A stretch of DNA of 33,560 bases from an uncultured Holophagaceae bacterium (lineage in GTDB: Bacteria > Acidobacteriota > Holophagae > Holophagales > Holophagaceae), in contig CAIWKE010000014.1 in assembly GCA_903913215.1 (NCBI GenBank), positions 1 through 33,560 of the forward strand, read 5' to 3'. This document shows positions 1 through 25,570 of this stretch, one piece after another (the first letter of the stretch is position 1; the number at the start of each line of letters is the position of its first letter). The notes below the pieces were generated by a model. The model did no database searches and was not told the origin of the DNA. It saw only the letters and a program-made list of their open reading frames with translations. Position numbers and translations under genes: made by a program.

Positions 1-3000
1 AAGTACGTGGACGCGATCTCCAAGGGCGCGATCCCGGCGAAGATCACCGACAGCTACAACGGCGACTTCAACACCATCAAGAACAACCTCAACCAGTGCA
101 TCGACGCGGTGAACCTGCTCGTGGCCGACGCCGGCGTGCTGGCGAAGGCGGCGGTCGAGGGGCGGCTGGCGACGCGGGCGGACGCGAGCAAGCACCAGGG
201 CGACTACCGGAAGATCGTACAGGGCGTGAATGACTGCCTGGATGCCGTCATCGGCCCCCTCAATGTGGCCGCCGGCTATGTGGACCGCATCTCCAAGGGC
301 GACATCCCCCCCAAGATCACCGACAAATACAACGGCGACTTCAACGAGATCAAGAACAACCTCAACCAGTGCGTGGATGCCGTCAATGCTCTAGTGGCCG
401 ACGCCGCCATGCTCGCCACTGCCGCCGTGGACGGCAAGCTGGCCACCCGCGCCGACGCCACCAAGCACCAGGGTGACTTCCGCAAGATCGTGCAGGGCGT
501 GGACGACTGCCTCGACGCCGTCATCGGGCCCCTCAACGTGGCCGCCGGCTATGTGGACCGCATCTCCAAGGGCGACATTCCCCCCAAGATCACCGACAAA
601 TACAACGGCGATTTCAACGAGATCAAGAACAACCTCAACCAGTGTGTGGATGCCGTGAACGCCCTGGTGGCGGACGCCGCCATGCTCGCCACTGCCGCCG
701 TGGACGGCAAGCTGGCCACCCGCGCCGATGCCACCAAGCACCAGGGTGACTTCCGCAAGATCGTGCAGGGCGTGGACGACTGCCTCGACGCCGTCATCGG
801 GCCCCTCAACGTCACCGCTGACTACGTGGACAAGATCTCGAAGGGCGTCATTCCTCCGATCATCACTGACAACTACAACGGCGACTTCAACATCATCAAG
901 ACCAATCTCAACAACATGGTCAAGATGATGAGCGACCTGCTCGCCCAGACCGACATCATCATCCAGGGCGCCGCCAACGGGGAGCTCGACAAGCGCGCCA
1001 ACGCCGACATGTTCGTGGGCGGCTGGAACCAGCTGGTCACGGGCGTCAACCAGGCCATTACCAACATCGTCGATCCCATGAACGTCACCGCCGACTACGT
1101 GGACAAGGTGGCCAAGGGCATCATCCCGCCCACCATCACCACCGAGTACAAGGGCCAGTACAACGTCATCAAGGTCAATCTCAACAACATGGTCAAGATG
1201 ATGAGCGACCTGCTCGCCCAGACCGACATCATCATCCAGGGTGCCGCCAACGGAGAGCTCGACAAGCGCGCCAACGCCGACATGTTCGTGGGCGGCTGGA
1301 ACCAGCTGGTCAAGGGCGTCAACCAGGCCATCACCAACATTGTCGATCCCATGAACGTCACCGCCGACTACGTGGACAAGGTGGCCAAGGGTGTCATCCC
1401 CCCCACCATCACCACTGAATACAAGGGCCAGTACAACGTCATCAAGGGCAACCTCAACAACATGGTCGCCATGATGACGGAACTGCTGTCGGAAACCGAT
1501 GGGTTGGTGCAGGCTGCCGTCGGCGGTCGTCTCTCGACCCGCGCCACTGCCTCGAAGTTCGTGGGCGGCTGGTTCCAGCTGGTGGACGGGGTCAACAAGA
1601 CCCTCGACGCGGTCATTGGCCCGCTCAACGTGTCAGCCGGTTATGTGGACCGCATCTCCAAGGGTGACATCCCGCCCAAGATCACGGACATCTACAACGG
1701 CGACTTCAATGAGATCAAGAACAACCTGAACCAGTGCATCGATGCCATGAATGCCCTGGTCGGTGACGCCGGCATGCTCGCCACGGCGGGTGTGGAAGGC
1801 AAGCTCAAGACGCGGGCCGACGCCACCCGGCACCAGGGTGATTTCCGCAAGGTCGTGCAGGGCGTGAACGACACCCTCGACGCGGTCATCGGGCCTTTGA
1901 ATGTGGCTGCCGGCTACATCGACCTCATCGGCAAGGGCGAGGTGCCCGCGAAGATCACCGATACCTACAACGGCGACTTCAACACCATCAAGAACAACAT
2001 CAACGCCTGTGTCGACGGGCTCCAGGGCCTGGTCGAAGCCAACAATGTCATCCAGTTGATGTCGCAGAATGATTTCACATCTGCGATCAGGGGCAACTAC
2101 CAGGGCGTCTTCGCCGAGCTGGGCAAGGCCATCAACGAAACAATCAAGCAGATGCGCGAAGCCTTGATCCAGGTCCAGGATGGGGCCGTTTCCATCGCCT
2201 CGGCTTCCGGCGAGATCGCCATGGGCAATCAGGACCTGAGCAGCCGGACGGAAGAGCAGGCCGCCAACCTGGAAGAGACCGCCAGTGGCCTCGAACAGAT
2301 CACCAGCAATGTGAACCTGACCGCCGAAAATGCCCAATCGGCCAACCAGGAGGCCGTCAAGGCCCGCCAGGTGGCCCAGGACGGTGGCACCGCCGTCGCC
2401 CAGGTCATCGCCGCGATGGAGTCCATCAACCAGAGTTCCGCCAAGATCAATGAGATCATCGGCGTCGTGGACGAGATCGCCTTCCAGACCAACCTGTTGG
2501 CCCTCAATGCCGCAGTGGAAGCCGCCCGGGCCGGAGAACAGGGTCGCGGCTTCGCCGTAGTCGCCGCCGAAGTCCGCAACTTGGCCAAGCGCAGTGCCGA
2601 CGCCGCCAAGGAGATCAAAGTCCTCATTCGCGAGAGTGTGGCCAAGTCCGTGGACGGCAGCAAGGTGGCCGCCCATGCCGGCGAAACCATTCAGGAAGTG
2701 GTGTCCAATGTCCAGCGCGTCACGGCACTGGTGGGCGAGATCGCCAACGCCACCCAGGAGCAGAGCACAGGCCTCATCGAACTGAACAAGGCCGTGGTCC
2801 AGATGGACGAAGTCACGCAGCAGAATGCGGCCCTGGTGGAACAAGCGGCAGCCGCCGCAGATACCCTCGACAGTCAGGCCCACACCCTGGCCGAGGTCGT
2901 CTCACGCTTCAAGACCGGTGCAGAAACCCGTCGCACTGAAGTCGCACGGACGGCGCCCCATGCCATTCACCCAGGGGCTGCCAAGAAGACGCTCTCAACC

Positions 3001-3141
3001 CGCAAGATGGTGGCACCACCCACCCCGACCAGGAGCACCAGGAACACCAGAGGCACAACGGCTATGCCTGAGCTCGCCTCCGCCAAGCCCCCGGTCCAGA
3101 CTCCCAAGGGCACTGATGACGGCGAGTGGGAATCCTTCTAG
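1..3141 (+). CDS. Methyl-accepting chemotaxis protein with a poly-HAMP array (5' partial)
   Basis: Chemoreceptor that would signal through CheA/CheW. The frame is open to the first base, so the N-terminus (probably membrane anchor and sensor) lies outside the window. Visible part: about 700 residues of tandem HAMP-like units in alternating pairs, one half of the type [17 protein letters not shown] and the other of the type [14 protein letters not shown]. Eight pairs are seen, each 91 residues. A cytoplasmic signalling domain follows: methylation-helix sequence near residue 735 and the conserved hairpin tip ([20 protein letters not shown]) near residue 823, counting from codon 7. The C-terminus ends in EWESF after a flexible Pro/Thr-rich linker, resembling the CheR/CheB-docking pentapeptide (xWxxF). 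cheW lies 97 bases downstream on the same strand. Family call is firm; ligand and topology cannot be judged. Confidence 0.95.
7..2190 (+). repeat. Tandem 273-bp repeats encoding paired HAMP-like units
   Basis: Eight in-frame copies with a 273-bp period begin near 7, 280, 553, 826, 1099, 1372, 1645 and 1918. Copies at 280 and 553 are almost identical at the DNA level, as are much of those at 1099 and 1372, pointing to recent internal duplication or gene conversion. The last copy is diverged in its second half, where it joins the signalling domain. The array starts before the window. Confidence 0.9.
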
Positions 3142-3796: not shown

Positions 3797-4939
3797 CTAG
3801 TTGCCGCGACTCGCCACCAGGCACTTGCCGAACCAGGTCCAGATGCCTTTGTTGAATTCCAGGCTGGTGGGCGTCCCTGCGAGGATGGCGTTGTAGCTGG
3901 TGAGGGGGTCGCCGGGCTTCTGGCGAAAGCGGGGTTCCGTGTCCCACAGCATCGGGTGCTCCGTGTGGAACTGGATGCCCAGCACGTTGGGATAGCGCGT
4001 GTGTTCAATGCCCTCCACCACCTTACCGTCCCGGGAGGTGGCGATGGTCTTCCAGCCGCGACCCAGCTTGGCCAGGGACTGGTGGTGGGAGCTGAGGACG
4101 CGGGGATGGTCCGTGCTCTTGAAGCCCATGGCCTCGGTGAACTTCCCCTTGGGCTTCAGCAGCAGGGTGTGGAAGTTGTAGGGCATGAGCTTGTCCATGG
4201 GGTAGAGGCGCTTGTAGGGATTGTTGTGCCACTGCTCGGGACCGAGGGCGATGACGTCCTCCACGCTCTGCTTCCGGTAGGTGCCGCTCCAAATGTCCTG
4301 CTGGAGACTGCCGCCCGTGCCCACGTTCAGGCTCTGGAAGCCCAGGCAGATGCCCAGGATGGGGAAGCCCGGCCGGGCCTCCAGCAGACCCTTGGCCGCG
4401 GGTGCCTGGGAACCGCCCAGCAGCTGGAAGATGGCAGACAGCTCCAGGTAGTTGCGGAAGGGATCCTCCACCTCCGAGAGCAGGTTGGTCTTCTGACCGA
4501 AGAGGGCCGCGGGAATGTCCGAGCCGCCGAAGAAGATCACGCCATCCGCCTGCTTCAGGATGGCTTCAATGTCCGGGGTGCAGGCATTCCTCTGGTAGAC
4601 CTCGGCTTCGCTGATGGGTGCGACGACGGTGTGGAACTGGATCCAGTCCAGGTGGTTGTCCGCCACGAACTTCCGGGAGATCTCGAAGTCCTCCTTCTGG
4701 CGCGCGTGGAAGACGCCCACTACCCGGAGGCCTGGCACCGCGAGGATGCCCTTCTCCCGCAGGGCCACGAGGCCCTTGAGGTTGTAGACGATGGGGTTGA
4801 AGACCACCAGGCGCACACCGTCCCCGGCTGGGCGGGACTGGTCCAGGAAGCGCTCCGGGGCCTGGGCGAGAAGGCTCAGGCCGAGCAACCATCCCAGCGC
4901 GAGGGCCTTGACGAGATTCGAGAGGAGGGGTCGGCGCAT
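3797..4939 (-). CDS. Exported class I glutamine amidotransferase-like hydrolase (peptidase C26 type)
   Basis: 380 residues. The N-terminus (RRPLLSNLVKALALGWLLGLSLLAQA) is a Sec-type signal peptide, so the enzyme should act outside the cytoplasm. The body is a class I glutamine amidotransferase fold. The nucleophile elbow GICLGFQSLN places Cys198, and FHTEHPM gives the His325/Glu327 partners; the FFGGSD segment near 140 fits the oxyanion-side loop. No synthetase domain is attached, so a gamma-glutamyl hydrolase activity (C26, PuuD-like) is more likely than amide transfer. It is the last gene of a minus-strand run, 2 bases after the epimerase. In that context it could cut a gamma-glutamyl bond in murein peptides or convert their products. 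Substrate is unknown; the fold is confident. Confidence 0.8.
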   Translation of the reverse strand: MRRPLLSNLVKALALGWLLGLSLLAQAPERFLDQSRPAGDGVRLVVFNPIVYNLKGLVALREKGILAVPGLRVVGVFHARQKEDFEISRKFVADNHLDWIQFHTVVAPISEAEVYQRNACTPDIEAILKQADGVIFFGGSDIPAALFGQKTNLLSEVEDPFRNYLELSAIFQLLGGSQAPAAKGLLEARPGFPILGICLGFQSLNVGTGGSLQQDIWSGTYRKQSVEDVIALGPEQWHNNPYKRLYPMDKLMPYNFHTLLLKPKGKFTEAMGFKSTDHPRVLSSHHQSLAKLGRGWKTIATSRDGKVVEGIEHTRYPNVLGIQFHTEHPMLWDTEPRFRQKPGDPLTSYNAILAGTPTSLEFNKGIWTWFGKCLVASRGN

Positions 4940-4941
4940 CG

Positions 4942-6063
4942 TCAGGACCTCAGGCGCAGACCCAGGCCCGGGGCCTGGGGCAGGATGAGCTTGCCCTTGG
5001 CCACGGTGACCCCGAGGTAGGGATCGTTGCCGATGAGCAGGGCGCCGTCCAGGTCCGCGTAGTCCGCCAAGGGGGACAGGTGGGCCGCGGCGGTGATGGT
5101 GCAGGAACTCGACACCATGCAGCCCAGCATGGTCTTCATCCCCAGGGCCTTCGCGACCGTGAGCTGGCGGATGGCCTCCAGGATGCCCCCGGACTTGTCC
5201 AGCTTCACCACCACGCCGTCATAGGCCTCGCGCAGCTTGGGGATCTCGTGGGAGGAGTGGCAGGCCTCGTCGGCGAAGATGGGCATGTGCACATGGGCGC
5301 GGATCCACTTGGTCTCTTCGAACATGTGGGCCGGCAAGGGCTGCTCGATGAACTGCACGCCCTGGGTCTCCAGCCAGTTGATCTTTCGGGCGGCCTCCTC
5401 TTTGCTGGTCCAGCCCTCATTGGCATCCACGCGAATGGTCTTCTTCGTTACGCTGCGCACGGCTTCGAGGGTGGCCTCATCCGTGGCCAGCCCCACTTTC
5501 ACCTTCAGCACGGAGAAGTCCTCAGCCTCCTTCACCTTCTGGCGCGTGATCTCGGGCGTATCGATGCCGATGGACATGTTCGTCTCCGCGGCGTCGGCAG
5601 GGTCCAGGCCAAAGTGGCGGTAGAGCGGCACGCCCAACTTCTTGCAGGTCCAGTCGAAGAGGGCCAGGTCCACGGCGGCCACGGCGGCCCGCTGGCCCGG
5701 CAGGCGGCGGTCCAGCTCGGCAATGAGCTTGTTGAAGTGCCAGGGATCCGTACCCGTGATGAGAGACTCCACGCCAGTCAGGGCCTTCTGGCCGCCCAGG
5801 GCGCTCTGGTTGTAGCGGACAATGCCCGCGCCTTCGCCGTAGCCGGTGATGCCGTCCCGCGTGAAGCGCACGTGCAAGCTGTCCCGGTAGGCGCTGGAGG
5901 ACATGGTGGTGGTCCAGGTATGGCGCAGTTCCAGCCGCTTCACTTCCGTGGTGAAGGTGGTCACGCCCCGGGGCGCGGCGCCGGGTGCGGCCCCTTCTCC
6001 CCGCAGCATAGCTGTGCCCGCCGTGGCCGCAGCCAGGGCCTGGAGGAGTTCCCGTCGCTTCAT
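4942..6063 (-). CDS. Dipeptide epimerase, enolase superfamily, with Tat-like leader
   Basis: 373 residues of the mandelate racemase/muconate lactonizing branch of the enolase superfamily, best matching L-Ala-D/L-Glu dipeptide epimerases (YcjG/YkfB), which convert murein-derived L-Ala-D-Glu to L-Ala-L-Glu. Active-site elements visible: KVK (Lys187/Lys189), metal ligands in VDANEGW (Asp213), IEQPL (Glu240) and ADEA (Asp265), and the opposite-face lysine in KLDKSGG (287/290). The N-terminus has a twin arginine (KRRELLQAL) followed by an Ala-rich hydrophobic stretch, which looks like a Tat signal; characterised family members are cytoplasmic. The start overlaps the NlpC/P60 gene by 4 bases (ATGA), so translation is probably coupled. 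Other dipeptide or acid-sugar substrates cannot be excluded, but the neighbours favour murein peptides. Confidence 0.87.
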   Translation of the reverse strand: MKRRELLQALAAATAGTAMLRGEGAAPGAAPRGVTTFTTEVKRLELRHTWTTTMSSSAYRDSLHVRFTRDGITGYGEGAGIVRYNQSALGGQKALTGVESLITGTDPWHFNKLIAELDRRLPGQRAAVAAVDLALFDWTCKKLGVPLYRHFGLDPADAAETNMSIGIDTPEITRQKVKEAEDFSVLKVKVGLATDEATLEAVRSVTKKTIRVDANEGWTSKEEAARKINWLETQGVQFIEQPLPAHMFEETKWIRAHVHMPIFADEACHSSHEIPKLREAYDGVVVKLDKSGGILEAIRQLTVAKALGMKTMLGCMVSSSCTITAAAHLSPLADYADLDGALLIGNDPYLGVTVAKGKLILPQAPGLGLRLRS

Positions 6064-6944
6064 TTCAGCCTCCGCATGGCCACCAGCAGCTTGGTCCAGG
6101 TGGGATCCCCGAGTTCGGAGACCTGGACGCCGGGGTGGTCCTTGGGTGTGTCGTGGATGAAGGTGCCCTGGCCCAGATACATCCCGGTGTGGGTGATATG
6201 AGCGGCATCCTTGCCGAAGAAGAGGAGGTCGCCGGGCTGCAGCTCAGCGCGGCTGGCCACCGAGCTGAGGCCCGTCCACTCCGCCTGGATATTGGCGTCC
6301 CGGGGCATGATCTTCCCCCGACGACGGACGATGGCCTGCGTGAAGCCCGAGCAGTCAAAGCCCTGGGTGGAGTTGCCGCCCCAGGTGTAGGTGATGCCCA
6401 GGAAGCGCTTCGCCAGGGCCAGGGAGGCCTCGATGCTGAGGGGCTTGGCATCGCTGCGCACATCGCCCCACTGGACCCAGGCCTGGCGCTGGTCCGGCAA
6501 GCGCACTTCCAGCCAGCGCGCATCGTCCTTGCCACGATTCAGGCGCTCCAGACGGGCGCCGTAGGGGGCCATGAGCAGGGATGCATGCTTGGTCACGTCG
6601 GGTTCCAGGTAGACATTCGCACCCAGAGCTTCCACCTCGATGCTGCGGCTGGGTTCGGAAGGGTACTGCTCCGCGCCAGCCAGTTCGCGCAGAACTGCGA
6701 GTTGAGCCCAGCCCGGATAGTCGTCATCGCCCTTCACCCGGACCCAGCCCTCCCGGCGCTCTACCTCGATCAGGCGCGCGCCCAGCAGAGCCTGTGAGAC
6801 CACATCCGCGTCCTCCCGAGGTCCCGAGTGGAAGTTGATGACGGGCCGCAGCACTACGAAGGCCGCAGGTTCCTTGGCCCACAGCGATCCGCCGAGAGCC
6901 AGCAGCAGCGCAGCTAGGAGGAAACGGAATCGGAACAAGCGCAT
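6060..6944 (-). CDS. Exported SH3-NlpC/P60 murein endopeptidase (YkfC-like)
   Basis: 294 residues with a Sec signal peptide (RLFRFRFLLAALLLALGGSLWA), two bacterial SH3-like modules (roughly 30-165) and a C-terminal NlpC/P60 cysteine peptidase domain. The nucleophile lies in GFDCSGFTQAIV, the catalytic His in the HITHTGMYLG segment, and a third polar residue in FIHDT. This SH3-SH3-NlpC/P60 order matches gamma-D-glutamyl-diamino-acid endopeptidases such as YkfC, which cut murein tripeptides to L-Ala-D-Glu plus the diamino acid. That product is the substrate of the epimerase encoded immediately downstream with a 4-base overlap, so the pairing is functionally coherent. The serine hydrolase gene lies 42 bases upstream on the same strand. 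Acting outside the cytoplasm is inferred from the leader. Confidence 0.9.
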   Translation of the reverse strand: MRLFRFRFLLAALLLALGGSLWAKEPAAFVVLRPVINFHSGPREDADVVSQALLGARLIEVERREGWVRVKGDDDYPGWAQLAVLRELAGAEQYPSEPSRSIEVEALGANVYLEPDVTKHASLLMAPYGARLERLNRGKDDARWLEVRLPDQRQAWVQWGDVRSDAKPLSIEASLALAKRFLGITYTWGGNSTQGFDCSGFTQAIVRRRGKIMPRDANIQAEWTGLSSVASRAELQPGDLLFFGKDAAHITHTGMYLGQGTFIHDTPKDHPGVQVSELGDPTWTKLLVAMRRLK

Positions 6945-6986
6945 GCGGGGTGCCTCGGCTGGGGAAACCTCATGGTCGCAGAAGGC

Positions 6987-7913
6987 TCAGTGAACTAGAA
7001 GCGGACCGAAGACCCGGCCTTCGGGCGAGGTGGCAGCGGCCATTTCAAAACAGGCAGCGGCGCGGCGCGCCATGCGGGCAATGGCCGCTTCGGCCTGGCG
7101 CTCATCCCGCAGGTGGGAGCTCATGAAGGCGAGGACGAAGGGACGGCCCTTCACGAAGATGATGCCCACATCGTTGCGCACCCCAGCCAGGGTGCCGGGT
7201 TTGTTGGCCACTTCAAGATCTTCCGGCAGCAGCCGCGTAAGGAAGCCGTCCTTGGGCGTGACCAGCAGGCGCAGCAGATCTGCGCGGGAGGCCCCGCTCA
7301 CCACTTTCCCACGGTGGATGAGGGTCAGCAGCTCGCCCAGATCCCGGGGGCTGCTGAGGTTCTCGCGGCCCGCCTGGGCCGCAGGAAGGTCCATCATCTT
7401 CCGGCGCAGATGAGTCTTTTCCAGGCCAAGGCCACGCAGGGTGGTGTTCACTTGCTCCACGCCCACCCGGTCCATGAGCAGGTTGGCAGCGCTGTTGTCG
7501 CTGACCACCACCATGAAGAGGGCCAGATCCCGCAGGCTGAGCTTCGTGCCCGGCGCGAGGTTGCCCAGGACGGCGCTCCCCTCCACCAGATCACGGGACT
7601 GCACCTCACAGACGTCCGTCAGGCGAAGCCGCCCCGCCTCCGCCTGCCGGTACAGCTCCAGCAGGATGGCCACCTTGATGGTGCTGGCCGTGGGGAAAAC
7701 CTCGTCGCCGCGCAGGGAGAAAGTCTCAGGCGAATCGAGGCCCTGGATGAAGATGCCCACGCGGCCATCGACCTCATTGGCCATGCGCGTGAGGTCCTCA
7801 GTCATGCGCGTCCAGAGGGCAGCAGGCATGGCGGGGGCAGCCTTGGGACCAGGCTGGGCGACCAGGCCCGCCGCCACGAGACAGGGGAGCAGGACATGGG
7901 CCGGACGTAGCAT
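6987..7913 (-). CDS. Exported class A beta-lactamase-like serine hydrolase lacking the usual Glu166
   Basis: 308 residues. The ATG at 7913 gives a signal peptide (LRPAHVLLPCLVAAGLVAQ); the open frame continues upstream to 8771 only because it is antisense to ddpX. The penicillin-recognising fold is clear: STIK with Ser77/Lys80 and SDN at 138-140. Two class A landmarks are altered. The omega-loop Glu motif is replaced by RRKMMD (170-175), and the KTG triad is KPG (238-240). Family members of this kind are often annotated as beta-lactamase, but without the deacylating Glu it may be a slow penicillin binder, a DD-peptidase or an esterase. It is first in the run leading to the endopeptidase, epimerase and amidotransferase-like genes. 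The fold is certain; beta-lactam hydrolysis is doubtful. Confidence 0.88.
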   Translation of the reverse strand: MLRPAHVLLPCLVAAGLVAQPGPKAAPAMPAALWTRMTEDLTRMANEVDGRVGIFIQGLDSPETFSLRGDEVFPTASTIKVAILLELYRQAEAGRLRLTDVCEVQSRDLVEGSAVLGNLAPGTKLSLRDLALFMVVVSDNSAANLLMDRVGVEQVNTTLRGLGLEKTHLRRKMMDLPAAQAGRENLSSPRDLGELLTLIHRGKVVSGASRADLLRLLVTPKDGFLTRLLPEDLEVANKPGTLAGVRNDVGIIFVKGRPFVLAFMSSHLRDERQAEAAIARMARRAAACFEMAAATSPEGRVFGPLLVH

Positions 7914-7988
7914 GGGTGCCTCCGCTCTCCACGGTATCAGTCCTGCCCCAGCCATCTGCGGACCCACGTTAAGCTGGGCCCATCCGAG

Positions 7989-8693
7989 ATGCCCATGCCC
8001 CTGCTCCGCTCCCTGCGCTCCCTCCTCCTGGTCGCCGCCCTGCCCCTGGGGGCCCAGAGCGCCGACTTGCCGAGGATCATCGCTCAGGCCCGGGCCGCCG
8101 CACCGCCGGTCCTGCCCCAGCCCCGCCGCGCCCCCGACCTGGTGGACGTCACCCGTCTGGATCCCAGCCTCCGCCTGGACCTCCGCTACGCCACCGCGGA
8201 CAACTTCCTGCATGCCCAGGTCTACACGCAGGCGAAGGCCTTCCTGCAACGCCCCGCCGCCGAGGCCCTGGTGCGCGTGAACCGGGATCTGAAGGCCCGG
8301 GGCTACGTGCTCCGCATCCACGATGCCTACCGCCCCTGGTGGGTCACCAAAGTCTTCTGGGACGCCACGCCCCCTGCCAGCCGCGCCTATGTGGCAGATC
8401 CAGCCAGGGGCTCCATCCACAACCGGGGTTGCGCCGTGGATCTTGATCTCGTCAACCTGGCGGACGGCCAACCCGTCTCCATGCCCGGCGACTACGACGA
8501 GATGTCCGAGCGTTCCCACCTGGACTACCAGGGCGGGCCCGCCGAGGCGCGGCAGCACAGGGACTTGCTTCGGACCGCCATGGAGGCCCAGGGCTTCAAG
8601 GCTCTGGCCGAGGAGTGGTGGCACTACGACCATGCCTCCAGTCCTGAGTATGGCGTGCTGAACCTGGCCTTCGAGGCCATCGGCGGGCATTGA
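7989..8693 (+). CDS. ddpX: Exported D-alanyl-D-alanine dipeptidase (VanX/DdpX family)
   Basis: 234 residues. A signal peptide (LLRSLRSLLLVAALPLGAQS) precedes a zinc M15D dipeptidase domain. The zinc motif SxHxxGxAxD is visible as SIHNRGCAVD (His144, Asp151), and ExWH as EEWWH, which supplies the catalytic Glu (209) and third zinc ligand (His212). VanX-type enzymes hydrolyse D-Ala-D-Ala; DdpX homologues feed on D-Ala released from murein. The gene is transcribed away from the serine hydrolase run, with 75 bases between the starts. There are no vanH/vanA-type ligase or vanRS genes nearby, so a nutritional or cell-wall-turnover role is more likely than vancomycin resistance. An in-frame ATG at 7995 is an alternative start. 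Confidence 0.9.
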   Translation: MPMPLLRSLRSLLLVAALPLGAQSADLPRIIAQARAAAPPVLPQPRRAPDLVDVTRLDPSLRLDLRYATADNFLHAQVYTQAKAFLQRPAAEALVRVNRDLKARGYVLRIHDAYRPWWVTKVFWDATPPASRAYVADPARGSIHNRGCAVDLDLVNLADGQPVSMPGDYDEMSERSHLDYQGGPAEARQHRDLLRTAMEAQGFKALAEEWWHYDHASSPEYGVLNLAFEAIGGH

Positions 8694-8861
8694 ACCCAGG
8701 CGACAAGTCACCCACCTCACGCTTCGTCGCGGTCCAAAAACAACTGTTTCATTCTGAGGCACCGGCGACATAAGGGCCTGTAACGGAATGGTAATAAAAT
8801 GCTCTGATTATTCCGCAACAACCCCTAAGGTTGAGAGATCCCCTCTGCTTCGGAGCTGCCC

Positions 8862-10223
8862 GTGTCCATCCGCCATTTCGGTCTCGCCCTCCTGCTTGTA
8901 CCCGCGCTGCAGGCCCAGGTCACCACGACCACCCTGCACGACGCCCTCCTGGCTGCCCGAGCCGATCGGGCCGGGGAGCCTGCCGTAGCCGCGGCCTTCC
9001 AGCAACTGGCCAAGGAGCACGGGACGCCCCTCTACATCTACGACCAGCGCTATATCCAGGGGCAGGCGGCGGCCCTGCGCTCGGCCTTCGCGCCCCGCTT
9101 CCCCAAGCTGCGCATCCTCTACGCCCTCAAGGCCAACACCAACCCCGCAGTGATCGGCCTGCTCCGCGCCGAGGGCATTGGCGCCGAGGTGGTCTCCCAG
9201 GGCGAGATCGAGACCGCGCTCAAGGTGGGTTACCAGGGCACCGAGATCATGTTCACCTCGTCCTCCAAGAACCCAGCGGAGATCCGGCGCGCCATCGAAC
9301 TGGGCACCGTGCTGAATGTGGACTCCATGGATGAGTTGGGGCAGGTCCAGGCCGAGGCTCACCGCCAGCTGAAGCAGGCCCGCATCTCCTTCCGGGTGAA
9401 CCCCGGCGTGGATCCCCACACCATCCACCAGATCAACACCGGCATCGCCGAGTCAAAGTTTGGCCTCCACCTCCAGGGCGGGCTGGCCTTCAAGGCCTAC
9501 GCGGCCGCCAAGGCCATGCCGGAGATCCGCATTGAAGGCGTCCACTGCCACATCGGCTCCCAGATCACGGAAACCGAGGGCTACACCCTCACGGCCACCA
9601 AGATGATGACCTTCGTGAAAGAGTTGAAAGAGAAGCTGGGCCTCAAGCTGGACTTTGTGGACCTGGGCGGCGGCCTGGGCATCCCCTACACGGACGGGCA
9701 GACCCTCATGTCTCCGGAGGACCTCGCCAAGGCCCTGGAGCCTGTGTGGAAGGCCGGCGTGGCCACCCTGGGCTATGAGCCCACCCTGTGGCTGGAGCCG
9801 GGCCGCTTCTTCGTGGGCGGCTCGGGCTTCCTGCTGACCCGCGTGAACACCGTGAAGGAGACGCCCATCAAGACCTTCGTGAACGTGGATGCGGGCTTCA
9901 ACACCCTCATGCGCCCGGTCATGTACCAGGCCTACCACCGTGTCCGTGTCATCGGCAGGACCCAGGACGTGCAGAAGGTGGATATCGCCGGGGATGTTTG
10001 CGAAACCGGCGACATTCTTGCAGAAGCGCGACTGCTGCCCAAGGCCAAGGCCGGAGACCTGGTGGTGATCCTCGACGCCGGGGCCTACGGCTTCTCCATG
10101 GCCAGCGAGTACAACGCACGGCCCCTGCCTGAAGAGGTTCTGGTGGAGGGCAATGCCGTACGGGTCATCCGCCGCCGCGCGGACTTCCCGGAGCTCTTCC
10201 GCACCGCCACCAGCGCGAAGTAG
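8862..10223 (+). CDS. lysA: Diaminopimelate decarboxylase homologue with a signal peptide
   Basis: 453 residues of the fold-type III PLP decarboxylase family. LysA marks are present: the PLP lysine in YALKAN (Lys90), the HCHIGSQ segment near 228, GGGLGIPY near 269, EPGR near 312, CETGD near 380, and the GAYGFSM..YNARPLPEE block near 408. LysA converts meso-DAP to L-lysine, normally in the cytoplasm. Here the GTG at 8862, with a GGAG site 6 bases upstream, adds about 19 residues (MSIRHFGLALLLVPALQAQ) that read as a Sec signal. No later ATG precedes the conserved domain in a way that removes it. It is followed 2 bases later by an AmiD-like amidase. It could act on DAP freed from murein in the periplasm; a different decarboxylase or racemase specificity is possible. 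Confidence 0.88.
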   Translation: MSIRHFGLALLLVPALQAQVTTTTLHDALLAARADRAGEPAVAAAFQQLAKEHGTPLYIYDQRYIQGQAAALRSAFAPRFPKLRILYALKANTNPAVIGLLRAEGIGAEVVSQGEIETALKVGYQGTEIMFTSSSKNPAEIRRAIELGTVLNVDSMDELGQVQAEAHRQLKQARISFRVNPGVDPHTIHQINTGIAESKFGLHLQGGLAFKAYAAAKAMPEIRIEGVHCHIGSQITETEGYTLTATKMMTFVKELKEKLGLKLDFVDLGGGLGIPYTDGQTLMSPEDLAKALEPVWKAGVATLGYEPTLWLEPGRFFVGGSGFLLTRVNTVKETPIKTFVNVDAGFNTLMRPVMYQAYHRVRVIGRTQDVQKVDIAGDVCETGDILAEARLLPKAKAGDLVVILDAGAYGFSMASEYNARPLPEEVLVEGNAVRVIRRRADFPELFRTATSAK

Positions 10224-10225
10224 TC

Positions 10226-10993
10226 ATGGGGAGCACCCGCCATCAACGCCTCACCGGCCTGGCCCTCGCAGCCTTGCTGCTGGGGGGTCTCGCCTGCCAT
10301 CCCCCACGCAATCCCATGGCCGAGTGGCTGCCATCGCCCAATCACAACGCCCGGCGGCCTCAGCTGATCGTGATCCATCACACAGCCGAAAAGTCCTTCG
10401 ACATCTCCCTGAAGGTGCTCCAGACGCAGAACAGCGGTGGCCCGGTCAGCTCCCACTACCTCATCGGCCGAGATGGGCGCCTGGCCCAGCTGGTCTCCGA
10501 TGACCACCGCGCCTACCACGCGGGGGGCGGCACCTGGGGCCCCTATCGGGATTTGAACTCCCTCTCCATCGGCATCGAGCTGGACAATACCGGCTTCGAG
10601 CCCTTCGCCGACGCCCAGATCGACCGGCTCCTGCTGCTGCTGGAGGACATCACCAAGCGCTTCAATATTCCCCGTACCCAGGTGGTCGCCCACGCGGACG
10701 TGGACCCTATCCGCAAGCAGGACCCCAGCGGCTTCTTCCCCTGGCAGCGCCTCGCCGATAAGGGCTTCGGCCTCTGGCCCGACCCGGTCCTCGCAGATCC
10801 CCCGCCCGCCTTCGATGGCTGGGCGGTGCTGCGCCTCATCGGCTATTCCCTGAAAGACCCAGCCGCCACCCTGCGCGCCTTCCACCTCCACTACCACCAC
10901 ACCGAAACCACCGACCTCGACGAGCAGGACCGCAAGATCCTGTTCAACCTCCAGACGAAAGTGCTGGCTGAGGGAAGAGCGAAAAGCAACTGA
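10226..10993 (+). CDS. N-acetylmuramoyl-L-alanine amidase, AmiD-like lipoprotein
   Basis: 255 residues. Zinc amidase_2 domain that would cleave the MurNAc-L-Ala bond of murein or anhydromuropeptides. Seen: VIHHTA (zinc His51), SSHYLIGRDG, the YHAGGG loop, SIGIELDN, and the VVAHADVDPIRKQDPS block carrying the second His and the Asp ligand. This arrangement and the C-terminal helical extension resemble AmiD. The leader (LTGLALAALLLGGLAC) ends at Cys24, so it is probably a lipoprotein, although the residue at -3 is not the usual Leu. It starts 2 bases after the lysA homologue and should be co-transcribed. It is convergent with the next gene, with no clear terminator between them. Confidence 0.9.
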   Translation: MGSTRHQRLTGLALAALLLGGLACHPPRNPMAEWLPSPNHNARRPQLIVIHHTAEKSFDISLKVLQTQNSGGPVSSHYLIGRDGRLAQLVSDDHRAYHAGGGTWGPYRDLNSLSIGIELDNTGFEPFADAQIDRLLLLLEDITKRFNIPRTQVVAHADVDPIRKQDPSGFFPWQRLADKGFGLWPDPVLADPPPAFDGWAVLRLIGYSLKDPAATLRAFHLHYHHTETTDLDEQDRKILFNLQTKVLAEGRAKSN

Positions 10994-11011
10994 TCCACCA
11001 CGGGGTCTGAA

Positions 11012-12151
11012 CTACTCGCTCCGAGGCATCAGGATCGTGTCGCGCCGCACCTTGAGGCCGATGGCCTTGGCGCTGAGGGTGCCGATCACTGGATAGAGCT
11101 CCTTGGTCTGGCCCTTGCCGTCCGGGTGCAGGCGGTTGGTGAGCAGGATGAAGAAGCTGTCTGTGGCGGGATCCAGCCACAGGGCCGTACCCGTGAAGCC
11201 CGTGTGACCGAAGGAGCCCAGCCCGAAGAGGCTGCCCCGCACCCGACTGAAGGCGGAGTCCAGGTCCCAGCCCAGACCCCGGCGATCCCGCACCGTGGGC
11301 GGGGTCTGCACGGTGCGCATGAGGGCCAGGGTCTCCGGTTTGAGCAGAGGACCACCCCGGAGCATGAAGCGCGCGTAGCGGGCCAGGTCGGCCGCTGTGC
11401 TGAAGAGGCCCGCGTGCCCCGCCACGCCACCCATGCGTCGGCTCGTCGGATCGTGGACCACGCCGCGCAGGGGCTGACCCCGTTCGTTGCGCTCCGTGGG
11501 GGCGATGCGCTCTAGGTGCTGGAGGTCCGGCAGGAAACGCGTGTCGGTCATACCCAGGGGGGTGAATACTTCCTGTTCAGCAAATACATTCAGGGGCCTG
11601 CCGCTGAGGCGGTGGACAATCTCCCCCAGCAGGATGAAGTTCACATCGCTGTATCGGAACAGCCGTCCTGGAGGCGGATTCGGTTGGCAGGCGCAGGCCC
11701 GCTGGATTCCCTCCTCGTAGCCGCGCCAGTCCGGGTGGGCCGAGTCCGCCGGGAGGCTGGCGGGCAGGCCCGAGGTGTGGGTGAGCAGGTGACGGACCGT
11801 GATGCCCGGCTGGCGGAACTCCGGCAGGTAGGCCTGGACTGGGGCTTCCAGGCGCAGCTGACCCCGCTCCAGCAGGAGCAGGACCGAGGGCAGGGTGGCC
11901 ACCACCTTGGTGAGGGAAGCCACATCAAACAACGTGTCCTCGGTCATGGGCTCGCGGTTGGGTTCCAGGCTGCGCTGGCCCTGGGCCCAGTGCCGTACCT
12001 CCGGGCCATGCTCCAGCCAGTACACGGCCCCGGGGATGTTCTTTTGCGCCATGGCGCCATCCAGCGCCGCCCGCACCTCAGCCAGTCCTTGGACATCGAA
12101 AGCCTGGGCGCTGAGGAGGGCCGCAGAGAACAGTAGGAGGAGGATCCGCAT
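11012..12151 (-). CDS. Exported class C beta-lactamase-like serine hydrolase
   Basis: 379 residues. Signal peptide (RILLLLFSAALLSAQA) followed by a beta-lactamase/PF00144 domain. Nucleophile motif SLTK (Ser79/Lys82), the HTSGLP segment near 125, a YSD in the position of the Tyr-x-Asn element (Tyr167), and HTG near 316 in place of KTG. This family includes AmpC, DD-peptidases (AmpH, YfeW) and esterases; HTG rather than KTG and the general sequence fit the peptidase/esterase side. With its neighbours, a role in trimming cell-wall peptides is reasonable, but substrate is not shown. It closes the block of exported cell-wall enzymes and is transcribed toward the amidase gene. Confidence 0.87.
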   Translation of the reverse strand: MRILLLLFSAALLSAQAFDVQGLAEVRAALDGAMAQKNIPGAVYWLEHGPEVRHWAQGQRSLEPNREPMTEDTLFDVASLTKVVATLPSVLLLLERGQLRLEAPVQAYLPEFRQPGITVRHLLTHTSGLPASLPADSAHPDWRGYEEGIQRACACQPNPPPGRLFRYSDVNFILLGEIVHRLSGRPLNVFAEQEVFTPLGMTDTRFLPDLQHLERIAPTERNERGQPLRGVVHDPTSRRMGGVAGHAGLFSTAADLARYARFMLRGGPLLKPETLALMRTVQTPPTVRDRRGLGWDLDSAFSRVRGSLFGLGSFGHTGFTGTALWLDPATDSFFILLTNRLHPDGKGQTKELYPVIGTLSAKAIGLKVRRDTILMPRSE

Positions 12152-12406: not shown

Positions 12407-14401
12407 TCAGGCCTTCACCACCGCCTGGGTGAGGTTGCACTCGGAACAGCGGTGGAAGAACTCGCCGCGGCGGGTGCTGGGGATGATGCGCATGGGCTTG
12501 GTGCAGGTGGGACAGGGAATGCCGTGGGCCTGGGGGGCCGGGGCATCCTGCAACTCGGCCACCACCCCAGACACGAAGCCCCGGATGTCGGCCATGAAGG
12601 TGCCGCGGCTTTCCTCTCCGCGGCGCATGCGCTCCAGGCGCGCCTCCCAGCTGCCAGTCAGCTCGGCGCTTCGCAAGGCCTCGGCAGGCAGGCCCTGGAT
12701 GAGCCGGATGCCCTTATCGGTCGGCAGCAGGATGTTGCGCTTGCGCTCGATGTAGGCCCGCTTGATGAGGGTCTCGATCATGTTGGCGCGGGTGGCGGGG
12801 GTGCCCAGGCCGCAGTCGCGCATGGCGCCGCGCAAGGCTTCGTCGTCCAACTCTTTGCCCGCCCCCTGCATGGCCGAGAGCAGGTCGCCCTCGCTCATGC
12901 GCTTGGGCGGTGTGGTCTTGCCCTCCTTGGGGTGCAGGGACGCCGTCTCCACGGCTTCGCCCTTTTTGACCGCGGGCAGGCCGCCCTCCACCTCGTCGTC
13001 GGCCTCCTCTTCGGCCTCGGCGGGATCGGTGACCTTCTCCACTTTCTTGCGACGGTGGGGAGGATCCACCGCGGACCAGCCCTCCTCCTTCACCACCGTG
13101 CCGTTGGTCTTGAAGGTCTCGGCCTCAACCTCCGTGATGATGGTGGTCTTGGCCTCCACACGGTCCGGGAAGTAGGCGCCCAGGAAGCGACGGGCGATGA
13201 GCTCGTAGATGCGCAACTCGTCGCCGGCCAAGCCCCGTGCGGGCTTTTCCGTGGGCACCAGGGCCGCGTGGTCCTCCACTTCCTTGTCGTTCACGAAGCG
13301 CTTGTCCAGCTTCACTGGCCAGCGCTTGCGCAGCTCATCCAGGAAGGGTTGCAGCTCCGTGAGTTGCCCCTGGGCTAGAGCTTTAATCCAGCCCGGCGCC
13401 TTGAGGGCATCCGCCTCGGTGAGGTGGCGGCTGTTGGTGCGGGGATACGAGATCAGCTGCTTCTCGTAGAGGGTCTGGGCCAGCCCCAGGGTGCCTTCGG
13501 CGGTGAAGCCGAAACGCTTGTTGGCCTCTTTCTGAAGGGCCGTGAGGTCGTAGAGCAGCTCGGGCTTCTTTTTTTCGGTGCGACCCGTGGCACTGCGGAT
13601 CTTCCCGGGCTTGTCCTTCAGCTTCGCAGCCAGCTCCAGGGCCTCAGCCTCCGTGGCGAAGCGCTCCGTGACCTGATCGCCCAGTTCCTTGAACCAGCGG
13701 CCCTCGTAGTTTCCGTTGGGGTGGGCAAAGCGGGCCCGCAGGGTCCAGAAGGACTGGGGCCTGAAGTCTCGGATCTCCAGTTCCCGGCGCACCAGCAGAG
13801 CCAGGGTGGGCGTCTGCACCCGGCCCACGCTCCAGACGCCGTCCTCGGCCCCAGCCCGACGCATGCGCAGAGTCTGGGCGCGGGTGGCATTAATGCCGAC
13901 CAACCAGTCCGCCTCCTGGCGGCTGCGGGCGGCCTCCCGCAGGCCCTCGTAGGCTGCGCCGGGCTTCATCTGACCGTAGGCCGCCTGGATGGCTTCCGGC
14001 GTCAGGCTGGAGGTCCAGAAGCGCAGCACGGGCTTATGACAGTCGGCCAGGCGGTAGACCAGATCAAAGATGAGCTCCCCTTCCCGTCCGGCGTCCGTAG
14101 CGTTCACCACCTCGGTGATATCGGCCCGGTTCAGCAGGCGGGCCACCACGTCGAACTGCTCTTTCGTCTGGGGGATGGCGGCGTAGCGAAAGGGCTCCGG
14201 GAAGATGGGCAGCCGGTCCCAGCGCCAGGCCTTCCAGGCGGGGTCATAGCCCTCGGGATTGAGGGCCTCCACAAGATGCCCGACACACCAAGTCACCACG
14301 AGGCCGTTGCCTTCGATCAGGCTGCGGCCCCGACCAGGCAGGCCCAGAGCCTCCGCTAGAGCGCGGCCCATGCTGGGTTTCTCGGCGATGATCAGGCGCA
14401 G
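12407..14401 (-). CDS. topB: DNA topoisomerase III (type IA)
   Basis: 664 residues if started at the CTG at 14401. Type IA topoisomerases relax or decatenate DNA through a 5'-phosphotyrosine link. The first ATG (14371) would remove the invariant TOPRIM start; reading from the CTG gives (M)RLIIAEKPSMGR, the expected N-terminus with catalytic Glu7. Also seen: the TOPRIM acidic motif in NATDAGREGE, WSVGRVQTPTLALL, and the active tyrosine in LISYPRTNSR (Tyr319). The C-terminus has a four-Cys zinc ribbon (CPTC..CSEC). A charged Glu/Asp-rich insert lies near residues 460-480. A TGGAG site 6 bases upstream of the CTG supports that start. It follows the HTH gene by 19 bases, so the two are probably co-transcribed. 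No relaxase or conjugation genes are nearby, so it looks chromosomal. Confidence 0.93.
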   Translation of the reverse strand: MRLIIAEKPSMGRALAEALGLPGRGRSLIEGNGLVVTWCVGHLVEALNPEGYDPAWKAWRWDRLPIFPEPFRYAAIPQTKEQFDVVARLLNRADITEVVNATDAGREGELIFDLVYRLADCHKPVLRFWTSSLTPEAIQAAYGQMKPGAAYEGLREAARSRQEADWLVGINATRAQTLRMRRAGAEDGVWSVGRVQTPTLALLVRRELEIRDFRPQSFWTLRARFAHPNGNYEGRWFKELGDQVTERFATEAEALELAAKLKDKPGKIRSATGRTEKKKPELLYDLTALQKEANKRFGFTAEGTLGLAQTLYEKQLISYPRTNSRHLTEADALKAPGWIKALAQGQLTELQPFLDELRKRWPVKLDKRFVNDKEVEDHAALVPTEKPARGLAGDELRIYELIARRFLGAYFPDRVEAKTTIITEVEAETFKTNGTVVKEEGWSAVDPPHRRKKVEKVTDPAEAEEEADDEVEGGLPAVKKGEAVETASLHPKEGKTTPPKRMSEGDLLSAMQGAGKELDDEALRGAMRDCGLGTPATRANMIETLIKRAYIERKRNILLPTDKGIRLIQGLPAEALRSAELTGSWEARLERMRRGEESRGTFMADIRGFVSGVVAELQDAPAPQAHGIPCPTCTKPMRIIPSTRRGEFFHRCSECNLTQAVVKA

Positions 14402-14407
14402 GGTGCG

Positions 14408-14413
14408 CTCCAG
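14408..14413 (-). promoter_or_regulatory. Shine-Dalgarno supporting a CTG start for topB
   Basis: CTGGAG on the minus strand ends 6 bases before the CTG at 14401. No ATG, GTG or TTG lies between the upstream gene's stop (14421) and the conserved first motif, so this site decides the start. Confidence 0.6.
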
Positions 14414-14420
14414 GGACGGC

Positions 14421-14864
14421 CTAGGCTTGAGCCTTCAGCTTCTCCAACTCGGCCTTGACCTTCCGTTTGCCCAGGGTGCGCAAGTTGGCGATGGCAGCCA
14501 GCTGCTGCTTCCGAGGCTTGGCTTTGCCGGCCTCCCAGTTGTAAACAGTCTGGGCCGAAACCCCCAGGAGGGCCCCCATATCCGCGGCCGTGAGGCCCAG
14601 GCGGGAGCGGTGGGTGGCCAAGCCCTTGGCGCTGAAGCGGGTGCGGGTGGGCGCTTCCTCTCCAGCGGCCTCGGCGCCCTTGGCGGCGGGCCTGCCAGCT
14701 AAACGGGCGACCTGCTTCTCCAGAGTGGCCACGCGCTTCTTGAGGCTCGACAGGTCAGTCCGGTACTGGGCCGAAGCCTTCTTGAGCCCTTCCACTTCGC
14801 CGCGCACTTCTTTCCGAGCAAGGCGAGCGATCTCCTCCTTCAGGACGGATGCAATATTCGGCAT
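14421..14864 (-). CDS. Small coiled-coil/HTH (XRE-type) DNA-binding protein
   Basis: 147 residues with no signal peptide. The N-terminal part (about 5-58) is charged and heptad-like (EEIARLARKEVRGEVEGLKK.., SLKKRVATLEKQVARLAG), suggesting a coiled-coil dimerisation segment. An Ala/Gly linker leads to an XRE-type helix-turn-helix near 85-125 (GLTAADMGALLGVSAQTVYNWEAG), followed by a Lys-rich tail. It resembles small HTH proteins of unknown role in several proteobacteria and acidobacteria. A GGGAG site stands 8 bases before the ATG. It is directly upstream of topB. It could regulate its own operon or act as a chromatin-associated factor; neither is shown. Confidence 0.8.
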   Translation of the reverse strand: MPNIASVLKEEIARLARKEVRGEVEGLKKASAQYRTDLSSLKKRVATLEKQVARLAGRPAAKGAEAAGEEAPTRTRFSAKGLATHRSRLGLTAADMGALLGVSAQTVYNWEAGKAKPRKQQLAAIANLRTLGKRKVKAELEKLKAQA

Positions 14865-14977
14865 ATAACGTCTCCCATAAGAGTCTCTTTTGTGATCCTC
14901 TCAAATTCATAATAGGCCAATTTGATTGATTTTTCGCTTATTCCCAAGGCCACAGCGATCTCCAGGGGCCTGGACTC

Positions 14978-17900: not shown

Positions 17901-17998
17901 CGCAGTGCTGGCCGCGCAATCTCGAAGGGCGCCTCGGCCCGCAGGCCGCAATGGGCCAGCAGGAGCAGACAAAGGGCCCGTAGGAATTGGCGGATCAT
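14978..17998 (-). CDS. Membrane diguanylate cyclase with a 14-repeat periplasmic propeller sensor
   Basis: 1006 residues. Signal peptide (MIRQFLRALCLLLLAHCGLRA), then about 640 residues of two-component-regulator propeller repeats. I count 14 copies of the LWVGT..GGGVARL strand pattern, enough for two seven-bladed propellers. A Y_Y_Y-like beta domain (about 690-765) follows, then one membrane helix (about 775-796), a coiled-coil linker (about 800-845) and a C-terminal GGDEF domain (about 845-1003). The active site is intact as GGEEF at 924, and an RxxD product-inhibition site (RKSD) sits five residues before it. It should make cyclic di-GMP in response to an extracytoplasmic signal. The sensor layout is that of hybrid two-component systems, with a GGDEF output in place of kinase and regulator. 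It is divergent from a PilZ effector gene. Ligand unknown. Confidence 0.95.
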   Translation of the reverse strand: MIRQFLRALCLLLLAHCGLRAEAPFEIARPALRIYGMEDGLPSGTVYCFARDSKGRLWAGSVDGAAYYTGHGWVSVRMPQESASQYIRSILASKDGSLWFGTQDGGVWRLQEGLWTHFRGGHELPSDHVFSLAETQDAQGHLTRWVGTGDRGIAAFKEGQWRAWGPQEGLPAGTVWKIREIHEPNGSVRVWAATERGLCVLEGERWRALGVKDGFLGGDANDVMEVEEADGSRSMWVSIWALGLARFDGRNWTYFRVGKEFPARFPTSSLCSTREPSGRTTVWVGTLNMGLWWYRDGRWQSLGKGQGFNTAGVLSVLPVPEGKPTLWVGTRGGGVASLDLGGWRTLDEAFGLPDLEVTCFAERTDPLDRAGFWVGTSNGLVCYRPGRPLERVPSAALPSDYIISILVSGKELWVATLKGLAHKDAGGWHHENGQGVLPEGMVICLYETYTRQRGRALWVGTTHGLGCFEQGRWHLLTRKDGLPQDYISSLCSVTGSDGEPVLWVGTRGGGVARLERGIWTTFGLDAGLPNGTVYALHVSTGPKGQRWLWAGTLGGGLARLALATPSRWDAFTRDNLPGLASNYIQRIEEDRRGRLYLSTSTGVTRIHLNWAGGVPRPDGLDSFTLGDGLPSQNGNLGASLVDAQGRVWIGTSRGAAVLDPAQETFPPLPPLPVLERVSVADPERNLVQGQRLSFRDHHLRFEFSLPVFHRKEDTRYQTQLLGLEAEPRPWHPEAWREFTTLPAGRYVLRIWARTFDGRVSGPVEFPFQVASAPWFHPLAFLLYVLAALGGLLGILRLRTRILKERTVALGQAVLDRTRIIEQQSRDLATSLEDLQQANLELTRLSSTDRLTQICNRVKLDAVLSEEVVRATRYRSKFSVSLMDIDHFKQVNDSHGHLIGDAVLVRIAGILRENVRKSDTLGRWGGEEFLLILPETDLEQACLLAEKLRQSIAAEHFPVVGPKTCSFGVASFQPGDTGDRLLARADEALYEAKHAGRNRIQAKPLEI

Positions 17999-18180
17999 GA
18001 GCTTCCATCAGCAAGAGCTTCATTACTGTTTCGGTGCCCCACCCCCGGGCCCTGAGATTTGCGTCAGTACGGGGCGCTTCCTGCCTCGTGCATCCAGAGG
18101 AACAGACCTGCTGTTCGGCATCGAGACTGGGCGAATGCTGCAGGGCAGAGCGGCAGAGATCACGGGTCGTCGTCACTGTC

Positions 18181-18206
18181 TATGCACCCACCAGGATGGG
18201 TGCATA
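18181..18206. promoter_or_regulatory. Perfect 10-bp inverted repeat upstream of the PilZ gene
   Basis: TATGCACCCA (18181-18190) and TGGGTGCATA (18197-18206) flank a 6-base spacer, 51 bases before the PilZ start. There is no T-run. It lies in the 259-base divergent spacer between the diguanylate cyclase and PilZ genes (17999-18257), which otherwise shows nothing I can name. It could be an operator for a dimeric regulator or an mRNA hairpin. Confidence 0.45.
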
Positions 18207-18257
18207 CACTGAAGTTGAATTCCTCCGTTTCATCCAGGCAATGGAGCGCAGTCGCGC

Positions 18258-21729: not shown

Positions 21730-21740
21730 GGCAGCTCCCC

Positions 21741-24577: not shown

Positions 24578-24651
24578 GCTCCCTCCTTGGCTACTCGAGC
24601 CTTGGTTGAGACTGCGTCTTAAAAAAGACTAATGGGGTGTTTATTAAAACT

Positions 24652-24679
24652 AGCCTAGGAGCCCCTGTTCTCTTGTCAA
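24652..24679 (-). promoter_or_regulatory. Possible promoter of the hydrogenase structural operon, overlapped by a palindrome
   Basis: On the minus strand a consensus TTGACA (24679-24674) is followed after 16 bases by TAGGCT (24657-24652), a weak -10 matching 3 of 6 bases. The -35 lies inside a 13-bp palindrome (CTCTTG T CAAGAG, 24670-24682). It would leave a leader of about 70 bases before hyaA. The region is unusually AT-rich for the window. Confidence 0.25.
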
Positions 24680-24779
24680 GAGCTGCAAAATTTCGACAAG
24701 TGAACACGATGCCAAGGTCATTTTCGGCTTCCCCTGAGCCAAGCCCCCCAGGGCCACGCTCCCAGGCTATGCTCTGCCC

Positions 24780-25559: not shown

Positions 25560-25570
25560 GGGGCGGTCCA

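Follow-up and report, generated by a model that had tools for sequence, protein, structure and literature searches.

A cluster of murein-peptide enzyme homologues with predicted export leaders, including a diaminopimelate decarboxylase homologue, in an uncultured Holophagaceae bacterium

The stretch of DNA analysed here, which we call the window, spans contig CAIWKE010000014.1 from end to end (33,560 bases; contig C14 within the 3.9 Mb assembly GCA_903913215.1) from an uncultured Holophagaceae bacterium, whose nearest named relatives in a genome-collection scan are Geothrix and other Holophagaceae. Our subject is a block of eight genes at positions 3797-12151, flanked by genes for CheW and a topoisomerase (Pfam), whose products belong to murein-peptide enzyme and related hydrolase families and all carry predicted export leaders of the general secretory (Sec), twin-arginine translocation (Tat) or lipoprotein kind. 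Among them is a homologue of LysA, the diaminopimelate (DAP) decarboxylase. The features of the block are as follows.

3797..4939, minus strand: C26, a Peptidase_C26 / class-I amidotransferase-fold hydrolase of 380 amino acids (PF07722, 89 bits), with a Sec-like leader
4942..6063, minus strand: EPIM, a dipeptide-epimerase-like protein of the enolase superfamily, 373 amino acids (PF13378/PF02746), with a Tat-type leader
6060..6944, minus strand: NLPC, an SH3 + NlpC/P60 endopeptidase of 294 amino acids (PF00877, PF08239), with a Sec-like leader
6987..7913, minus strand: BLA_A, a class-A beta-lactamase-fold serine hydrolase of 308 amino acids (PF13354, 213 bits), with a Sec-like leader
7989..8693, plus strand: DDPX, an M15 D-Ala-D-Ala dipeptidase of 234 amino acids (PF01427), with a Sec-like leader
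8852..8864, plus strand: ribosome-binding GGAG (8852-8855) and GTG start (8862) of LYSA
8862..10223, plus strand: LYSA, diaminopimelate decarboxylase family, 453 amino acids, GTG start, with the Sec-like leader MSIRHFGLALLLVPALQAQ
10226..10993, plus strand: AMI2, an Amidase_2 (AmpD-like) lipoprotein of 255 amino acids (PF01510, 110 bits)
11012..12151, minus strand: BLA_C, a class-C beta-lactamase-fold serine hydrolase of 379 amino acids (PF00144, 238 bits), with a Sec-like leader

The genes are tightly packed. The minus-strand run C26-EPIM-NLPC-BLA_A has gaps of 2, -4 and 42 bases, NLPC overlapping EPIM by 4 bases, and in the plus-strand run DDPX-LYSA-AMI2 the gaps are 168 and 2 bases, AMI2 starting 2 bases after LYSA, with BLA_C converging on AMI2. 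All eight proteins exceed the Pfam gathering score of their main family, which bears out the position and families given in an earlier, sequence-only reading of this DNA. Among the NCBIfam matches listed, LysA is the sole block protein above a curated cut-off, so the exact substrates of the other seven are putative; EPIM is best described as dipeptide-epimerase-like. The catalytic motifs of the respective families are intact in all eight.

Leaders were scored with a home-made and crude rule, a positive n-region followed by an uncharged hydrophobic stretch. All eight block genes are positive, as are three of three related genes on contig C16 described below, compared with 4 of 31 other genes in the rest of the window and a stretch of contig C16; the earlier prediction of a leader on every block gene is thus upheld. 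Of the four outside positives, a topoisomerase and an aldo-keto reductase are presumably spurious and the other two are membrane proteins (identified partly by eye); the rule also fails to flag a hydrogenase small subunit and a sensor, both of which appear exported on inspection by eye. Such leaders would place the block enzymes outside the inner membrane, and the predicted export rests chiefly on conservation among orthologues and on the lone usual start codon of the window LysA. Genes of relatives come from a home-made gene caller whose start choices are approximate, the same caller having missed the true AMI2 start in the window, and neighbours without Pfam or NCBIfam coverage were named by eye or by order.

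The window LysA scores 452.2 bits on TIGR01048 (lysA; cut-off 297.9), and its nearest solved structures are DAP decarboxylases (E 3e-82). Residues K90, H228, R315, R351, Y355, C380-E381 and Y409 are present, which we take to be the pyridoxal phosphate (PLP) lysine, the His, the EPGR and RP..Y motifs, the Cys-Glu pair and the Tyr of the family. It is a decarboxylase by family, with predicted activity on meso-DAP. The home-made rule predicts a Sec leader, with n-, h- and c-regions, at a start that is well supported: the GTG at the leader is the lone ATG, GTG or TTG within the first 70 codons, and GGAG lies six bases ahead of it. In all 14 close orthologues, the window copy included, GGAG lies 5-6 bases ahead of a GTG or ATG start codon, at which a leader resembling (M)SLRRLSLALLLPLALQAQ begins; we picked the orthologue starts among in-frame candidates. 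The absence of any other usual start over 70 codons of the window gene, together with the conserved GGAG and start, led us to reject a start-codon artefact as the source of its leader. Mean pairwise identity among the 14 is 0.64 over residues 1-20, 0.80 over residues 21-45 and 0.83 beyond, as a loosely constrained leader would show.

EPIM opens with MKRRELLQ..., and its twin-arginine motif recurs as KRRELL, KRRELF, NRRELL or NRRELF in the orthologues inspected. With this motif in the leader and TatC encoded in the genome (162 bits), EPIM is a predicted Tat substrate. Residues K187/K189, D213, E240, D265, K287 and a DxD at 337-339 are present, presumably the metal and lysine set of the enolase superfamily with the DxD at the last strand, and the nearest solved structure is 3iji (E 1e-73). 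The leaders of both EPIM and LysA are conserved in orthologues, so the outcome that would have refuted the sequence-only reading, a predicted cytoplasmic place for these two enzymes, did not arise as far as our leader prediction goes.

The remaining enzymes are intact by the same reckoning. NLPC has C198, H252 and H264. C26 has C198, H325 and E327, which we read as its catalytic motif; its orthologues are 63-71% identical, and all six inspected carry a leader. The rule labelled C26 as Tat solely on account of twin arginines at residues 2-3; these are missing from the orthologues inspected, so we rejected it as a Tat substrate and read it as Sec. It is a speculative candidate for an L-Ala-L-Glu dipeptidase. 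BLA_A shows STIK, SDN, E184 and KPG and scores 141.7 bits on a class-A model, below the cut-off of 200. DDPX retains H144, D151, H212, E208/E209 and R115 and reaches 157 bits on PRK10178 (cut-off 176). The DDPX of locus L034 (7290-8711) is about twice the window length and has a marginal YkuD match (23.8 bits, cut-off 23.4); the gene is longer in other relatives too, judged by length only, and the window copy ends after the dipeptidase. AMI2 was labelled Sec by the rule, and its lipobox was read by eye as LACH in the window and ASACH or LSACH in orthologues. BLA_C carries SLTK, YSD and HTG, and in locus L047 a BLA_C domain is fused to a NamZ exo-muramidase (17628-19799; Pfam). A long BLA_C gene, known by its length only, lies at 12599-14878 of locus L043.

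In relatives the block runs on into genes for a BadF-type kinase, a second amidase lipoprotein (peptidoglycan-binding) and a leader-bearing glutamate-racemase homologue. In this genome the same three genes lie on a separate contig, at C16:55,240-58,413 (L100 7241-10414). Ahead of the trio stand genes for NagA (242 bits, cut-off 226), MurQ (358 bits, cut-off 168), a NagB-II-like SIS protein (260 bits, under its cut-off of 430) and an AmpG-family carrier (175 bits, under its cut-off of 350), along with a leader-bearing GHL10 protein and a membrane protein of the HGSNAT/DUF5009 kind. The block is joined in relatives to this murein-sugar locus, whose sugar enzymes look cytoplasmic, behind the AmpG-like carrier. 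The C16 racemase homologue has the motifs FDSGFGG, ACNTAS and CTHYP with D53, C124 and C291, presumably the DSG, ACNTA and CTH motifs of glutamate racemase with both cysteines. The structural model of its orthologue in L040 is weak (mean pLDDT, the predicted local distance difference score, 57.7; pTM, the predicted template-modelling score, 0.62), and its 19 best PDB matches are glutamate-racemase chains. Because an ordinary MurI candidate, itself a weak match, lies elsewhere (C32), the C16 protein looks like an extra, exported member of the family.

The set is conserved as a set. Within the genus, EPIM orthologues of at least 76% identity occur in 10 of 37 genomes, a count that excludes weaker enolase relatives in G015, G023 and G031, and the leader-bearing glutamate-racemase homologue occurs in the same ten, short weak matches elsewhere, presumably ordinary MurI, being excluded; the co-occurrence has a Fisher p of 3e-9 over the 37 genomes, kinship not corrected. 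LysA is found in nine of the ten; the contig of the tenth, G035, stops within DDPX, beside the expected LysA site. C26 is found in seven. Gene order is largely kept in relatives, L034 and G199 being rearranged, and on this ground we rejected a chance neighbourhood. The block is inherited as a unit, and the clustering in related genomes that the sequence-only reading hung on is there. In G026 a single run reads MFS (major facilitator superfamily), membrane protein, GHL10, kinase, amidase, racemase, EPIM, NLPC, Alr, DDPX, LYSA, AMI2 and BLA_C, without C26 and BLA_A (genes named by their resemblance to scanned ones). In G199, which corresponds to L042 and belongs to another genus of the family, EPIM, DDPX, LYSA, AMI2, a sodium/solute symporter and C26 stand together, with a different leader-bearing glutamate-racemase homologue of 493 amino acids (L119 17628-19109). 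The cluster is also carried by a named strain, Geothrix oryzisoli SG189 (L043), which makes the system testable at once.

Leader-bearing LysA proteins are not confined to this family. The genome-collection scan for LysA relatives returned 30 loci, with leader-like N-termini in Riflebacteria L046 and in L045 (an unclassified bacterium beside L046 in the tree), in Acidobacteria L044 and L047 and, more weakly, in the planctomycete L048. Bacteriovoracaceae LysAs have Tat leaders (SRRSFFEI, NRRSFFEI, NRRKFFQI). Among the loci inspected, no leader was seen on LysA of the archaea L053 and L054, Chloroflexota L055 or Bacillota L059. In L044 and L047 the neighbour of the leader-bearing LysA is an S66 L,D-carboxypeptidase that has its own Tat leader (NRRGFLG and SRRRFLG, respectively), and L047 has a GH3 gene and the BLA_C-NamZ fusion some kilobases from LysA. 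The Bacteriovoracaceae gene has a conserved place among apparent housekeeping genes.

We placed these proteins in a tree of 33 rows, built with leader regions excluded and with leader labels set by eye, in which the labels of L013, L014, L015, L048 and L123 are less secure (one count omits L014) and the core of L051 was cut at the default place; L016, L050, L056, L058, L060, L062 and near copies stand outside it. The window LysA clade has 15 rows (support 100/99), with a leader in 14 and none in G144. Its sister group of eight rows comprises three with Tat leaders, three with Sec-like leaders and two without. Well-supported branches force at least three changes of the Sec label. Across the phylum, LysA matches of E 1e-90 or better occur in 10 of 297 sampled genomes, and three of these ten (G103, G144 and G193) appear leaderless. 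The leaderless LysA of G144, which has in its vicinity an S66-like gene (by eye) bearing a Tat leader (L120 4635-10916), forms a natural contrast with the exported LysA. Going by record titles and leaders judged by eye, the leader-bearing 'LysA' family spans four phyla, and family-based annotation would call its members biosynthetic.

We propose a model in which the block makes up the peptide half of a system for murein catabolism, with its enzymes acting outside the inner membrane, and we put the probability of this model at about two in three. What we observe is which genes are present, their leaders and intact motifs, and their conserved clustering and joint inheritance; from these we infer compartment, substrates, step order and uptake. 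The lipoprotein amidases would strip stem peptides off murein fragments, and NLPC and DDPX would trim these to L-Ala-D-Glu, DAP and D-Ala. Tat-exported EPIM and the exported glutamate-racemase homologue would then convert D-Glu centres to L, while Sec-exported LysA would turn meso-DAP into L-lysine. L-amino acids and small peptides would enter the cell, sugars would enter via the AmpG-like carrier, and MurQ, NagA and the NagK-like kinase would complete sugar breakdown. The leader-bearing glutamate-racemase homologue in the same set makes the case stronger than the sequence-only reading had it. If the model is true, wall peptides are largely turned into common L-amino acids before uptake, with no need of a special carrier for DAP or wall peptides, and a decarboxylase joins the PLP enzymes known to work in the periplasm.

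Murein recycling usually follows a scheme of cutting outside, importing and converting inside. In Escherichia coli it involves AmpG, AmpD, LdcA, MpaA, YcjG, MurQ and NagZ, with the epimerase and later peptide steps in the cytoplasm, after import. The block and its linked half resemble that system in having an amidase, peptide trimming, an L-Ala-D/L-Glu epimerase-like protein, an AmpG-like carrier, MurQ and NagA. Unlike in E. coli, EPIM and LysA have predicted Tat and Sec leaders, which argues against a cytoplasmic place for the epimerase and DAP steps, and LysA and a glutamate-racemase homologue are added. The Bacillus subtilis YkfABC operon likewise sets an epimerase beside an NlpC/P60 gamma-D-Glu-diamino-acid endopeptidase, but YkfB is cytoplasmic and the operon is not known to include LysA, glutamate racemase or C26. 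DDPX shares the M15 family, with zinc and catalytic residues, with PcgL, DdpX and VanX, and its predicted export with PcgL; it differs in standing in a catabolic cluster and in being longer in relatives, with the marginal YkuD match. The M14, VanY and LysA group of DOLJORAL78 (L049) also has LysA, 43% identical, beside peptidase genes; that LysA is leaderless and may be a plausible cytoplasmic counterpart.

Alr, BsrV/BsrF and LysA are all PLP enzymes of fold type III. Pseudomonas putida Alr and BsrV/BsrF are described as broad-spectrum periplasmic racemases (PMC6034422, PMC12502697), and Alr is reported to be an active racemase with a targeting sequence and with activity measured in the periplasmic fraction (PMC6034422). 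Like the window LysA with its predicted leader, these are PLP-type enzymes with an N-terminal export signal; the window protein differs in belonging to a decarboxylase family (TIGR01048). Exported racemases are a precedent for a PLP enzyme working outside the inner membrane. We found no description of an exported LysA, or of a glutamate racemase outside the membrane, in the open-access literature searched. Within that literature, the chemistry is known and the predicted extracytoplasmic location of LysA and glutamate racemase is the new part.

A number of observations weigh against the proposed model. Some concern the pathway itself, which the sequence-only reading had suggested could be complete and end in uptake of free amino acids. 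Neither suggestion is borne out: none of the eight block genes, to which this check was confined, is an L-Ala-L-Glu dipeptidase or an amino-acid importer, and alanine racemase and the sugar steps look cytoplasmic. Alanine racemase lacks a leader both in the relatives' cluster and in this genome's copy (C2), so D-Ala is probably converted inside the cell. C26 and the two penicillin-fold proteins, BLA_A and BLA_C, keep the families given them earlier but carry no assigned step in the pathway. C26 and BLA_A are missing from several cluster copies; in the gene calls for G008, G026, G030 and G035 the block has no BLA_A, and L034 and L035 give no match to it. EPIM falls below its NCBIfam cut-offs (218 bits against 400 on DgcA, its best; 141 against 343 on PRK15129, L-Ala-D/L-Glu epimerase), as it does on the Thermotoga-type epimerase model (127 bits against 500), and for this reason we term it dipeptide-epimerase-like. 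The C16 racemase homologue reaches 75.5 of the 146.65 bits that TIGR00067 requires, and in G008 the gene is cut to about 128 codons (L102 about 14749-15132), between C26 and the amidase. The set is missing from 27 of the 37 genus genomes, hence dispensable.

Others concern the export of LysA. Close relatives in G144 (65% identical) and G103 (64%) have no leader, so export is not universal within the clade. The Bacteriovoracaceae Tat-LysAs (L051, L052 and L061, about 9839-11245, gene starts by eye) do not stand in a murein cluster. Eleven of the 14 orthologues have an extra possible start between residues 3 and 43, and in seven a GGAG or GAGG match lies ahead of a start at residues 28-43, so that a leaderless form is possible there.

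These last points bear on an explanation in which genes for periplasmic wall remodelling simply lie beside a biosynthetic lysA, the N-terminal extension being no working signal and LysA making lysine for growth in the cytoplasm. Lysine supply lends it some weight. This genome has three LysA homologues, in the window, on C20 and on C12. Of the window and C20 copies, which were the two scanned, the window LysA alone passes the TIGR01048 cut-off of 297.9. The C20 homologue (C20:76709-77830, L003), which lies beside an aminotransferase and is found in 34 of 37 genus genomes, scores 241 bits, has Cys-Thr in place of Cys-Glu, and was rejected as a certain LysA since it falls below the cut-off and its nearest solved structure is BtrK. 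LysW was not found in the 24 of 37 genus genomes searched; the aminoadipate route to lysine therefore seems absent, and we rejected it on that ground. Some close LysA relatives are, moreover, leaderless. On the other side stand the leader and GGAG in 14 of 14 orthologues, the lack of an alternative usual start codon early in the window gene, the different leaders of related LysAs (Tat in Bacteriovoracaceae), and the co-inheritance of LysA with EPIM and the exported racemase. Further, because the gene is missing in 27 of 37 congeners, with a contig ending short in one more, and the C20 homologue is present in 34 of 37, the window LysA is not the genus's lysine gene. We consider a cytoplasmic, biosynthetic LysA unlikely. 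Either the C20 protein is a LysA that has diverged, or the genus for the most part obtains its lysine otherwise or from outside, in which case an exported LysA would be a lysine source. It is quite unlikely, in our judgement, that the block LysA is the only true DAP decarboxylase, with lysine made outside the inner membrane from DAP of the cell's own or its neighbours' walls and then imported, and C20 doing something else.

The same enzymes could instead serve periplasmic turnover of the cell's own wall, with the racemase and LysA removing or converting D-Glu and DAP, for instance to prevent misincorporation or signalling, and not to feed the cell. The lack of an amino-acid importer among the eight genes would fit, as would the known racemases that are exported to the periplasm and act there on D-amino acids (PMC6034422, PMC12502697). 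Catabolism is nonetheless where the company of the block points: AmpG-like, MurQ, NagA, NagB-II-like and NagK-like genes are linked to it in relatives and co-occur with it in this genome, and the cluster of one other genus contains a sodium/solute symporter. We hold a pure turnover role to be decidedly unlikely. Highly improbable is a set of beta-lactam-response genes, made up of the two beta-lactamase-fold enzymes with murein enzymes. BLA_A does have SxxK, SDN and the Glu and matches the class-A model at 142 bits, but that is below the cut-off of 200, the gene is absent from the block in the same four genomes (as called), and such a response would leave LysA, the epimerase and the racemase unexplained.

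Elsewhere in the window, positions 20589-31343 hold genes for a nickel-iron hydrogenase and its maturation (by eye), the small subunit at 23459-24544 having a Tat-type leader. Positions 7-3141 encode a chemoreceptor-like protein (by eye), with many near-identical repeats ahead of its signalling domain.

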